15,591 nucleotides of DNA, from NCBI GenBank assembly GCA_934525325.1, contig CAKSZE010000038.1, positions 1-15,591 on the forward strand. Reading direction: 5' to 3'. A program made the position numbers and the translations under genes. The first letter of the stretch is position 1, and each line of letters begins with the position of its first letter. The DNA is from an uncultured Faecalibacterium sp. GTDB lineage: Bacteria; Bacillota; Clostridia; Oscillospirales; Ruminococcaceae. Under the pieces are notes generated by a model, which did no database searches, was not told the origin of the DNA, and worked only from the letters and a program-made list of their open reading frames with translations. This document shows positions 7,055 through 15,301 of the stretch, piece after piece.

Positions 7055-7119
7055 AATACGATTTTGAATGGCCGCCGCTTGCGCTTTGGCCATGTTCAGC
7101 GGAATTATGATTTTTGTTT

Positions 7120-7160
7120 GGGATTCCGAAAAGCCTGCGGGCTTTTCGGAATCCCTTTTT
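7120..7160 (+). terminator. Terminator hairpin 1 of repeat copy 1, acts on the cyclophilin transcript
   Basis: GGGATTCCGAAAAGCC (7120-7135) pairs without mismatch with 7140-7155 around a TGCG loop, closed by C-G, which is a stable UNCG-type tetraloop in plus-strand RNA. TTTTT follows at 7156-7160. Confidence 0.85.
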
Positions 7161-7201
7161 CACGGGAAAAGATGCATCGACCAATTGCGACCCCTTCTGT
7201 G

Positions 7202-7242
7202 AAAATGCGAATCCGGGCAGACCGCAGTCTGCCCGGATTCGC
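7202..7242 (-). terminator. Terminator hairpin 2 of repeat copy 1, acts on the ruvX transcript
   Basis: GCGAATCCGGGCAGAC (7207-7222) pairs perfectly with 7227-7242. Read on the minus strand the loop is again C(TGCG)G, and ATTTT follows (7206-7202), so it is oriented for transcripts coming from ruvX. Confidence 0.8.
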
Positions 7243-7323
7243 GCAATAATAAAATATATTTTCCGCTGTTTTTGCCCAGAGCGCAGCGGAGGGCATTTCC
7301 AATCGTCCGGCCTTAGAATAAGA

Positions 7324-7755
7324 TCATATCTCCCCCGGATGTTCCTTGCGCCATGCAAGGTAGTCCTCCAGAATCACCGTGGCGCTGACCGAATCTAAAA
7401 TCTCCTTGCGGCGGCTGCCGTAGGTGCCGCTTTCGTCCAGAAGGTCGGCGGCGGCACAGGTGGTCTGGCGCTCGTCCCACATCCGCACCGGCAGGCCGCT
7501 CCAAAGTTCTACGGTCTTTGCCAGCTTGCGGCTCTTGGCGGCGCGCTCGCCCTCGGTGCCGTCCATATTCAGCGGCAGACCGATCAGGATCATCTCGGCT
7601 TCGATCTCCTTGGCTACCTCGCAGACCCGGGCGGCTACCTTGTTGCGCGCCTTTAAGGTGATCTGGGGCGTGATGGCGGTGGTAAGAAATTCGGTGCGGT
7701 CACAGGTGGCAAGGCCGGTGCGGCTGTCCCCGTAGTCAACGGCTAAAATCTTCAT
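7324..7755 (-). CDS. ruvX: Pre-16S rRNA nuclease / Holliday junction resolvase-like protein, RuvX/YqgF family
   Basis: The 143-residue protein MKILAVDYGDSRTGLATCDR has the RNase H-like fold of the YqgF family. Key acidic positions are visible: Asp7 in AVDYG, the ILIGLPLNMDGTEGERA segment (56-72), WDERQTT (93-99) and Asp121 in DSVSATVILEDYL. Family members process the 5' end of 16S rRNA and were earlier proposed as Holliday junction resolvases. Length is normal. GAAAGGGA precedes the ATG by about 6 nt. The same frame stays open for over 900 codons upstream on the minus strand, but that is the antisense shadow of addB. The promoter lies at 7792-7820, divergent from addB. Confidence 0.94.
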   Translation of the reverse strand: MKILAVDYGDSRTGLATCDRTEFLTTAITPQITLKARNKVAARVCEVAKEIEAEMILIGLPLNMDGTEGERAAKSRKLAKTVELWSGLPVRMWDERQTTCAAADLLDESGTYGSRRKEILDSVSATVILEDYLAWRKEHPGEI

Positions 7756-7791
7756 ACAAAGTCCCTTTCCGGTGTGCAGAGTGTTTTTTTC

Positions 7792-14200: not shown

Positions 14201-14939
14201 TGCAGCCACGCCGGACGAAGCGCCGGAGACCGACCCGGCACTGGTGGAGAAGCTGCGGCAGAACTTTGCGTGGCAGTACCCGGCGGCAGCCCTTGCACAG
14301 GTGCCCGCCAAGGTCAGCGTGACCAGCATCGTGCACAAGGCCGAGCAGACCACACTGGAGCGCCCGGGCTTCCTTTCCAAGGACGGCCTGACCGCCGCCG
14401 AGATGGGCACGGCGCTGCACGCCTTTTTGGAGCACGCAGACTTTGCCCGGCTTGCCGAGGCCAAGGCCGCGGGCACGCTGGACGCAGCCATCCCGGCAGA
14501 GCGGGACCGTCAGGTGGCATTGCAGCTGACCGCCCCGGAGATCGCGGAAAAGCTGGATGCGGTGTGCATCCGGCGTTTTGTGGAAAGCGAAGCCTTTGCA
14601 AAGATCTGCGCCGCCGAGCAGGTGCTGCGGGAACTGCCCTTTATCACCGCGCTGCCCGCCGGTGCGGTGCTGGCGGCGCAGGGACACGAGGAACTGCCCG
14701 CTGCCGCAGACGCGCAGGTGCTAGTGCAGGGCATCGCCGACCTTGTGCTGGTGTACCCCGACCATCTGGAGCTGCTGGACTACAAGACCGACCGCCGCAA
14801 GGCCGAGAGCGACTTTCTGCGCGCCTACCGCGCCCAGCTGAACCTTTACGCCATTGCCATCGAAAAGCGCTTTGCCCCGAAAAAGGTGACCTATAAGGGC
14901 ATCTACTCCTTTGCACTGGGCAAGCTGATCGAAGCGTAA
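11253..14939 (+). CDS. addA: AddAB helicase-nuclease, AddA subunit
   Basis: The 1228-residue UvrD/RecB-type protein starts at GTG with GGAGG 7 nt upstream. Superfamily 1 helicase motifs appear in order: SAAAGSGKT (24-32, Lys31), TFTNAAAAELRARIG, VDEYQDTN near residue 423, GDLKQSIYRFR just after, TIHRSKGLQFPVVFVGD near 809 and LLYVALTRAQDK near 883. The C-terminal RecB-family nuclease shows GTALHAFLEH (His1056), GIADLVLV (Asp1163) and LLDYKTDRRK (Asp1176, Lys1178). All catalytic groups are present, so this is a full motor plus nuclease. In other bacteria AddAB recognises a Chi-like site; its identity here cannot be read. The gene ends 3 nt before repeat element copy 2. Confidence 0.97.
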   Translation: MSGPKWTPAQQAAIADRGGALLVSAAAGSGKTAVLTERAVQLITDPEHPVNADRLLIVTFTNAAAAELRARIGQALLHRSQLQPGNAMLRRQRMLLQRAPICTIDAFCLNLLHKHFQALDIPPDFAPADPGTVQLLRGAALAETLENAYRDPDFCAFADLYGKGRTDKPAGDAILQIYDFLRALPDYDRKLDEFLAPYEQENGFASTCWHDLLLADVARCAKAARELLTAALADCHADFEQELAAAEEKKTPSARAKAQATVAEKYEEAGTRLEKAAALFAQAEQLAAAGQWDPLYDLLTPYVLGMEEAPGLKGMKKRLGGDHKAEIKTRSDEAAALFEQMTQLICCSEAEAETDRQITLPRLRALFAAVRDFDARFTARKRERKLLEFSDFEHLALRLLRTPEGTPTPLCENIRQDYAAVMVDEYQDTNALQDALYRCLAAPAGDNLFLVGDLKQSIYRFRQAEPGIFRQKLDSWPLLPGAKARPRPPEGTPGTDALLALDANFRSAPQVVAGINYLFEQLMTPELGDTAYGDGQRLVCGAPGEYQGSVEVQFLPDDETETDAGWIAERIRQLVSAGEPVREGSTTRPVRYEDCCVLLAARTDFPAYVEALTARGIPVYADARENLMLAPHIRPLIALLKVIDDPSQDIYLAAAMLGPMFGFTEDDLVRLRARSRQVQAEPDKKPARISLYGALLLALEDPAEDPFTEKVKDFYAHLTALRQMARSAPAEQLLEEIFASTGYLAALGVLENGARRREDARRFANFCATSGTGGISALVRAIDAAAQAGSTGQDTVPSGVHPGCVSIMTIHRSKGLQFPVVFVGDTARKFNASDIRQPVLVHRSYGAGLRLRPENGEGAYKTAAYTALAAVHAKELRSEQMRLLYVALTRAQDKLILTVPLSSGKTAKPFAKAAAFLAAGAGATLHQQANSFADWLRAALLVHPDGGVLRQLSGNRELLFVQTESVMAIKVCDDAVQLSEEPDAATPDEAPETDPALVEKLRQNFAWQYPAAALAQVPAKVSVTSIVHKAEQTTLERPGFLSKDGLTAAEMGTALHAFLEHADFARLAEAKAAGTLDAAIPAERDRQVALQLTAPEIAEKLDAVCIRRFVESEAFAKICAAEQVLRELPFITALPAGAVLAAQGHEELPAAADAQVLVQGIADLVLVYPDHLELLDYKTDRRKAESDFLRAYRAQLNLYAIAIEKRFAPKKVTYKGIYSFALGKLIEA

Positions 14940-15003
14940 AAGGATTGAAAATGGCCTCCGCTGCGCTCTAGCCATGAATAGCGGAAGAATTATTTATATT
15001 TTC

Positions 15004-15043
15004 GCGTTTGTCGCGCTCTGCGGAGCGCGACAAACGCTATTTT
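15004..15043 (+). terminator. Terminator hairpin 1 of repeat copy 2, acts on the addBA transcript
   Basis: GCGTTTGTCGCGCTC (15004-15018) pairs perfectly with 15023-15037 around TGCG closed by C-G. TATTTT follows. The stem is unrelated in sequence to that of copy 1. Confidence 0.8.
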
Positions 15044-15149
15044 CACGGGAAAGGCCGTAGAGGAAAACAGGTGGCTTTACCCGCAACGCAGCTGTTTCCA
15101 AAGGAAACAGGCGTTGCAGATGCTGCTTTGATTTACGACCCCTCCTGTG

Positions 15150-15190
15150 AAAATGGGTTTCAGGAAAGTCCGCAGACTTTCCTGAAACCC
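15150..15190 (-). terminator. Terminator-like hairpin 2 of repeat copy 2
   Basis: GGGTTTCAGGAAAGTC (15155-15170) pairs perfectly with 15175-15190; the minus-strand loop is C(TGCG)G and ATTTT follows on that strand. No minus-strand gene is visible upstream of it in this window, so its use as a terminator is uncertain here. Confidence 0.55.
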
Positions 15191-15301
15191 GAAATTAAAA
15201 TAACCTTTCCGCTGAATATGGCCAGAGCGCAGCGGAGGCCATTCAAAATCGTCTCACTGGCCGGAAAGTCATATTTTTTCCAAAGAACGCATAAAAAGTG
15301 C

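Follow-up and report, generated by a model that had tools for sequence, protein, structure and literature searches.

How can a long stem change in sequence and still remain perfectly paired? Template switching is one answer proposed to this open question (in the available text of PMC8794818), which is raised in concrete form by a 15,591-nt stretch of DNA from an uncultured Faecalibacterium sp. (assembly GCA_934525325.1, contig CAKSZE010000038.1, positions 1 to 15,591, forward strand; hereafter the window, meaning the whole stretch analyzed). Two structured intergenic elements, A (7059-7305) and B (14942-15251), were found where an original prediction, made from the letters alone, had placed them, and all four of their long hairpins are perfect as it had described (A1, A2 and B2 over 16 bp, B1 over 15 bp; loops TGCG/CGCA). 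Both elements have terminal inverted repeats, span less than 500 bp and lack an open reading frame (ORF) of their own; chance ORFs of ~100 amino acids cross both. Comparison with related genomes makes it probable that A and B belong to a high-copy, non-autonomous intergenic family, similar to repetitive extragenic palindromic (REP) sequences and miniature inverted-repeat transposable elements (MITEs), in which hairpins move as cassettes and the two arms of a stem change together through template switching and exchange.

The repeating unit is the half-element, with A and B as inverted pairs of it. From inside to outside, a half-unit comprises a box, TTACGACCCCWCCYGTGAAAA (pattern CGACCCC...GTGAAAA), a hairpin of 14-17 bp, an AT-rich spacer and a terminal repeat with the consensus TTCCGCT..ATGNNC.AGAGC..GCGG.GNNCATT..AAATCGTC. 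The hairpin loop is CGCA in 119 of 126 half-units. Each terminal repeat has its own co-varying 6-bp stem (ATGCGC/GCGCAT, ATGGCC/GGCCAT or ATGCCC/GGGCAT), interlocked with CCGCT/AGCGG in pseudoknot order; all six pairs were Watson-Crick in 104 of the 114 terminal repeats that could be parsed (12 more were unparsed), and the outer-stem forms included GCG/CGC (44), GGC/GCC (34) and GCC/GGC (17). Minimum-energy folds of A and B on both strands have the terminal repeats closing around hairpin 1, an inner TTTTCACGGGA/TCCTGTGAAAA helix and hairpin 2. The four-way junction suggested earlier therefore stands as the predicted fold of these two elements but not as a general form: among 112 parsed elements (from the window, two genomes and locus L064), 14 were full inverted pairs and 98 had one detectable half, so the junction is not the usual form seen. 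At several of the single-half elements listed, other repeat modules take the place of the partner half.

Several further modules lie in or beside half-units. A second abundant intergenic repeat (GCTCGCCCTCTC...GGGAGAGG...GCCAAGG...GAGGGCGAG) occurs next to or inside elements (L002, L010, L025, L042 and other loci), often occupying element interiors or the orthologous site, and likewise bears perfect hairpins that are short and variable (ACGGCTTACGCCGT, GCGCGTTAGCGC, ATCGCGCAGCGAT and others). An insert of ~100 bp with GCTTGTCGGGGCAAAG...AAAGCCCCACTGGGGCTT sits at or beside the hairpin loop in four copies (L006, L034, L127 and L163), as if another element preferred loops, and one starting GTGCAAC(G/A)ACGACGACCGCC splits three copies (L001, L023/L035 and L027) at an identical position in the terminal repeat. 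Just inside the box, many half-units have a second hairpin module (CAGCGCCGCTTTCTGCGAAAGCGCGGCGCTG and variants; L007, L011, L020, L108 and L133).

A covariance model built from 42 aligned half-units and run at E ≤ 1e-6 matched 10 of 31 Faecalibacterium genomes: eight contained 72 to at least 112 half-units, two contained two each and 21 contained none. The original prediction, which few further copies would have undermined, thus found ample company for A and B. Three carriers scored more deeply (E ≤ 0.001) gave 146, 140 and 76 matches, and the box with one mismatch allowed was present in eight of the 31 genomes. Shared coordinates identified genome G002 (NZ_CP094467.1) with the single-contig G033, G003 (APC923/51-1) with the draft assembly G001, and G004 with G031. 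A strict terminal-repeat pattern had 30 matches in G002, of which 26 coincide with model positions among the matches listed; the remaining four are at positions 528052, 1928871, 2474151 and 2588403. In 148 sampled genomes of the family, scanned with Infernal under stricter filters, the model matched only G001 and none of the other 147. The exact box pattern was likewise confined to G001 among 295 genomes sampled from the order, the other three genus members in that sample lacking the box. Among the genomes sampled, the repeats were thus seen only in Faecalibacterium. Matches also occurred in 17 unannotated faecal 'Bacteriophage sp.' records, most shorter than 8 kb; a phage origin was rejected on four exact box matches in viral contigs that had neither hairpin nor terminal repeat.

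A difference in one arm of a stem is nearly always accompanied by one in the other. A search that required pairing (up to three mismatches) returned 54 candidates, from which six false ones were removed. Six of the remaining 48 were left out of the alignment, three for an interrupted terminal repeat (L027+, L035+ and L048-) and three as degenerate (L040-, one of L043, and L045; L043 and L045 have two to three stem mismatches), so the resulting 42-unit alignment and the covariance model lean towards intact copies. In helix 1, 14 of 16 pairs had changes on both sides; its 659 cells held 229 two-sided changes, three one-sided changes and 28 unpaired cells, 24 of the latter being a recurrent tandem G.A mismatch. 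Over the three-helix structure, 94.8% of cells were paired against 71.1% in shuffles, in units selected with a pairing requirement. As a control for stem evolution we used the 6S RNA (RF00013) of the window (5539-5743, minus strand, 66.9 bits): 17 Faecalibacterium sequences with 1,003 cells gave 38 two-sided, 28 one-sided and six broken or gapped cells, in a single RNA from different species, with a predicted fold and a relatedness unmatched to that of the half-units.

A second search was anchored on the box and terminal repeat, both of which were required. Its 138 candidates were two-peaked, with pairing scores of 12-16 in 126 and ≤8 in 12; these poorly paired 12 were excluded and were mostly false matches, but they include L006 and L127 (hairpin insert) and L136 (broken hairpin). 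Leaving out the outermost pair and the G.A positions, only nine of 1,836 stem cells in the 126 half-units were non-Watson-Crick. Four of these departures were T-G and three of A-C type, so neither RNA strand is favoured, and assigning a strand from wobble pairs was abandoned for want of any asymmetry. The half-units contain 74 distinct hairpins. Their minimum spanning tree, with a two-arm change counted as one step, had 145 two-arm and 13 one-arm position changes (136 and 22 when each base was counted singly), and 21 of its 26 one-position edges were two-arm. Drift by single mutations, the outcome that would have spoken against the original prediction, is therefore rare, and its claim of joint change on both arms was upheld. 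Its description of the stems as unrelated holds in part: a GCGTTTG class (27 of 126 half-units) forms a second class, but most 16-bp stems look like concerted variants within a single diverged family. Within the GCGTTTG class the two central bases were GA/GA in 19 members, TC/GA in five and GA/TC, GA/GC and CC/GG in one each, so that the arm agreeing with its partner is sometimes one and sometimes the other, which is what arm-from-arm copying predicts.

That one-sided changes are so scarce speaks for arm copying rather than selection on structure, without settling the choice. Compensatory evolution is a possible, if unlikely, alternative: strong selection would act on an RNA terminator or processing hairpin, and strain differences would reflect recombination of whole intergenic regions plus repeated insertion. 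One-sided states are nearly absent from helix 1, unlike from 6S RNA, and the even split of T-G and A-C departures does not point to either RNA strand. The location of the elements does fit this alternative. Genes were called with a simple codon-usage ORF caller in sampled stretches, chosen because they bear elements, and in the window. The 79 merged elements (771.5 kb plus the window) comprised 27 in convergent, 45 in tandem and five in divergent gaps, with two at an edge and none inside a called ORF; relative to the remaining gaps of ≥80 bp, divergent gaps were depleted (p=0.0002) and convergent gaps enriched (p=0.005), assuming one counted gap per element. In a stop-distance count over the 126 half-units (five at an edge, two inside ORFs), outer ends facing a gene 3' end had the hairpin 75-99 bp from the stop in 39 of 72 cases, which means that the terminal repeat abuts the stop codon. 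A terminator scan in the inward reading called A1 and B1 but not A2 and B2, against 0.7 and 0.9 such sites per region in shuffles. Compensatory evolution is supported by the placement at gene 3' ends, by the avoidance of divergent gaps, by the T-run after an inward-read hairpin and by the many other repeat modules in which orthologous intergenic regions are also unlike.

Movement of hairpins as cassettes is indicated by their association with the rest of the half-unit. The hairpin is not tied to the adjoining terminal-repeat variant: in copies of one genome that share a hairpin, terminal repeats were no more alike than permuted ones (32 of 200 permutations reached the observed similarity for the 51 pairs of G2, and 91 of 200 for the 30 pairs of G3). 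The spacer next to the hairpin was linked to it in G2 (0 of 200 permutations) and not clearly in G3 (31 of 200), and the box was linked to it in both (3 and 12 of 200, respectively). Two strains can also carry different hairpins at the same site. When half-sites of G002 and G003 were matched by their outer flanks within the sampled stretches, 13 of 22 orthologous pairs had the same hairpin and nine had different ones. Across the 13, two of 442 hairpin bases differed, amounting to one concerted pair change at one site, and 47 of 839 spacer and terminal-repeat columns differed. L130 and L022 have different hairpins beside near-identical terminal repeats (two differences in the 45 bases after TTCCGCT), and at one site described below (site 3) a third genome, G021, has yet another left hairpin beside the same terminal-repeat type. 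The constant scaffold with different stems, originally noticed between A and B, thus recurs at single genomic sites in different strains. All 14 full elements are heterodimers of unlike hairpins, and hairpins within one element were, if anything, less similar to each other than hairpins from different elements (0.40 versus 0.50).

Full elements can lie inverted between matching flanks, which is not a compensatory change. Of five whose two hairpins were both readable in both strains, three were inverted and two (L128/L018 and L130/L009) had the same orientation. Hairpins had swapped sides between matching flanks at L116/L023 (site 1), L126 first/L027, where only one matching flank was read, and L126 second/L034 (site 3), and differed by a few bases or an insert. 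At site 1, terminal-repeat types move with the hairpins, placing the switch near the outer ends; G033 and G001 have the left junction GGCAGAGTGGACGATTT in common but an opposite placement of the hairpins, and G017 has no element there. At site 3, where G017 also lacks the element, the left switch falls within the terminal repeat, and on the right the junction keeps a remnant of the old one.

The presence of elements differs between close strains. Element A is missing from L061-L063 and is represented by a single half in L064; in L061, L062, L063 and L065 a short hairpin, terminator-like by eye, replaces it. Element B is missing from L062 and L063; in L061 a different stretch, 78 bp long, stands in its place. 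With the empty sites of G017, these sites bear out the REP- or MITE-like dispersal that had been suspected. Terminal inverted repeats and empty sites would also suit a MITE or REP mobilized in trans by an inverting transposase or recombinase that recognizes the hairpins or terminal repeats, as in REP/RAYT (REP-associated tyrosine transposase) or IS200/IS605 systems, and so would the inversions at site 1 and L126/L027, whose junctions lie near the element ends, and the CGTC-like end of many copies. We consider this unlikely. Y1_Tnp (E ≤ 1e-10) occurs in five of eight carriers and four of the 23 other genus genomes and is absent from carriers G015, G021 and G032, although G021 has at least 112 half-units; the REP-type transposase partner proposed for carriers was therefore not borne out, and RAYT was rejected as it does not track them. 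Two intervals of ~2.5 kb between inverted half-units hold ordinary genes by ORF reading, and both were dismissed as autonomous copies: at L118, half-units ~2.5-2.6 kb apart enclose a transporter-like gene, and at L111 the interval has enzyme-like genes. No autonomous parent with the same ends was found in these two candidate intervals, no systematic search having been made. A recombinase acting on the element ends is possible, with Y1_Tnp not its general source. A phase-variable switch, in which a site-specific invertase alters transcription across the gap, is most improbable: three of five comparable full elements are inverted between strains, but the element has a hairpin on either side and is almost symmetric, crossover points vary between sites and no promoter-like site was found inside A or B.

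In the reading that we prefer, of mobile hairpin cassettes with concerted arms, whole hairpins may be exchanged among copies by recombination, with the conserved box and terminal repeat as homology; such exchange between dispersed copies would explain why hairpin and terminal repeat are no longer linked. Replication template switching between inverted repeats would rewrite one arm from the other, producing concerted arm change, and may also invert the segment between terminal repeats, so that it would explain both scales, arm identity and segment inversion. Each hairpin with its T-run, read inward, would act as an intrinsic terminator; a full element could then end transcription from both sides, and use as terminators at gene ends would tolerate or select copies. 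More doubtful is a genome-wide hairpin-cassette system, in which ~100 dispersed sites per genome, with a common scaffold, would hold long perfect hairpins as alleles that are arm-copied, exchanged and flipped, giving strain-specific two-sided terminators.

Several observations weigh against cassette movement with arm copying. Copies with damaged terminal repeats or hairpins were removed before the pairing counts, and the other five one-position edges of the hairpin tree were one-arm. The tandem G.A (5'-GA/3'-AG), in the middle of a 15-bp and otherwise mostly perfect stem, is kept in 19 of 27 GCGTTTG members (for example, L003, L020 and L037), so either copying is not fast there or the tandem G.A is tolerated; retention of a stable tandem G.A also suits compensatory evolution. 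Terminal repeats are not homogenized, since their similarity was no higher within elements than between them (0.667 versus 0.716; 14 elements), and homogenization was discarded on that ground. For six of the nine hairpin differences no inversion was seen, and these could have come from separate insertions or from recombination with another strain that replaced the region. Inverted elements have altered interiors and one messy junction, and the draft assembly (G001) is one partner in every inversion. A clean target duplication was evident at none of A, B, site 1 and site 3, where flanks differ by small replacements, a point that also counts against mobilization in trans; no transposase was found as a partner, with Y1_Tnp the only one looked for. 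As for termination, among tandem gene pairs the terminator-competent side is directed at the upstream gene in 30 cases and not in 38, showing no orientation bias, and a native terminator-like hairpin is still beside the element at sites 1 and 3.

The family offers a natural test of how perfect stems evolve, with 70 to 140 replicate half-units on one scaffold per carrier genome and strains close enough for site-by-site comparison, so that concerted arm change, cassette exchange and inversion are directly countable. It also shows that repeats with a possible role in setting transcript ends are quickly remodelling the intergenic DNA of a human gut commensal.

Table 1 Parts of elements A and B in the window
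Feature	Position	Strand	Description
Element A left terminal repeat	7059..7104	-	Own interlocked stems ATGGCC/GGCCAT and CCGC/GCGG
Element A hairpin 1 (A1)	7120..7155	+	16 bp with TGCG loop and TTTTT after it; resembles a terminator in the inward reading
Element A left inner box	7156..7169	-	TTTTTCACGGGAAA, degenerate
Element A right box	7188..7205	+	CGACCCCTTCTGTGAAAA
Element A hairpin 2 (A2)	7207..7242	+	16 bp, loop CGCA
Element A right terminal repeat	7261..7307	+	GCCC/GGGC type, ending in AATCGTC
Element B left terminal repeat	14942..14986	-	2 bp between stop codon of presumed addA and 14942
Element B hairpin 1 (B1)	15004..15037	+	15 bp, perfect form of GCGTTTG class
Element B left inner box	15040..15052	-	TTTTCACGGGAAA
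Element B right box	15136..15153	+	CGACCCCTCCTGTGAAAA
Element B hairpin 2 (B2)	15155..15190	+	16 bp; type present in 4 of 126 half-units
Element B right terminal repeat	15207..15253	+	ATGGCC/GGCCAT type, ending in AATCGTC

Convergent genes flank element A: the stop of a plus-strand ORF that we take, from ORF reading, to be cyclophilin-like is 4 bp away, and the minus-strand ORF beyond the element is presumably RuvX-like on the same basis. Element B starts 2 bp past the stop codon of a gene that we named addA from ORF reading, and AddB of the window has 98% identity (best segment) to those of F. prausnitzii APC923/51-1, ATCC 27768 and Faecalibacterium sp. I4-1-79, a match that assigns the window to Faecalibacterium. 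Soon after element B, a strong sigma-70-like promoter (TTGACA-17-TAGAAT, 15302-15330) precedes a conserved leader and a gene that we assume to resemble infC. Rfam at the gathering score returned only the 6S RNA in the window, with no credible match for the elements even at E ≤ 1; the weak match across element B was SSRC8_2 (19.4 bits against a cut-off of 72). On this basis, a known RNA family was ruled out for A and B.

How does the family relate to known systems? No description of it was found in the open-licence literature available on Faecalibacterium repeats, MITEs or inversions, where one match concerned hammerhead ribozymes. The claim that no described family follows the swapping rule stands to that extent, tempered by CGTC-tagged REP dimers, which share several traits in the available text of PMC3733652. 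With MITEs the elements have in common terminal inverted repeats, a length below 500 bp, the lack of an own ORF and empty sites in relatives. Quasipalindrome template-switch hotspots are similar in that inverted-repeat arms become identical and spacers are inverted: template switching creates and mends hairpins (available text of PMC8794818) and homogenizes arms while inverting spacers (available text of PMC8604942). Those are mutational events at single loci, whereas our pattern recurs, on one scaffold, in over 70 dispersed hairpins of each carrier genome. Correia repeat enclosed elements of Neisseria are likewise small and intergenic, with terminal inverted repeats, and inversion of the element has been reported; compared by description, they differ in carrying promoters, and swapped perfect hairpins go unmentioned in the accessible part of PMC10969869. 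The same part of that source describes the pneumococcal BOX, RUP and SPRITE repeats, which resemble our elements as nested intergenic repeats, SPRITE being terminator-like; they belong to a different genus, and neither hairpin swapping nor whole-element inversion is mentioned for them there.

REP-type repeats come closer. GTAG REPs and REPINs are also dispersed, high-copy intergenic palindromes in single and inverted-pair forms (available text of PMC3733652); unlike in those with RAYT, an outer-end GTAG occurs in only two of our 126 half-units and the Y1 transposase is missing from some carriers. CGTC-tagged REPs, according to the parts of PMC3733652 at hand, are high-copy intergenic palindromes, single or as inverted dimers, located mainly downstream of genes between convergent or tandem ORFs and lacking a dedicated transposase; some Agrobacterium tumefaciens families have two stem-loops in the spacer, and heterodimers are often preferred, a feature called unexplained. 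Their stems are 8-9 bp and their loops 4-5 nt (available text of PMC3733652; Di Nocera et al. 2013). The main text of PMC3733652 mentions neither Faecalibacterium nor 'Clostridi'. In our set, the outer end was AATCGTC in 65 half-units, another AATCGTN in 33 (98 in total) and neither in 28, and CGTC lay within the outer 22 nt of 72 of the 126 half-units, compared with 185 of 2,125 flank windows. Against the available description, the family differs in its 6-bp end stem, ~14-nt loop and second interlocked stem, which fall outside the defining stem and loop sizes, in a 14-17-bp hairpin that sits inside and not next to the tag, and in hairpin swapping and whole-element inversion, seen here and not in that description. 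Shared with it are inverted heterodimers, location at gene 3' ends and, for some of its families, a structured spacer; a CGTC end is shared by about half of the half-units, and the lack of a known transposase as far as Y1_Tnp shows. REP-type repeats, and CGTC-tagged REP dimers with a structured spacer in particular, thus appear to be the nearest known systems, and the unlike hairpins of all 14 full elements bear on the heterodimer preference described for them.

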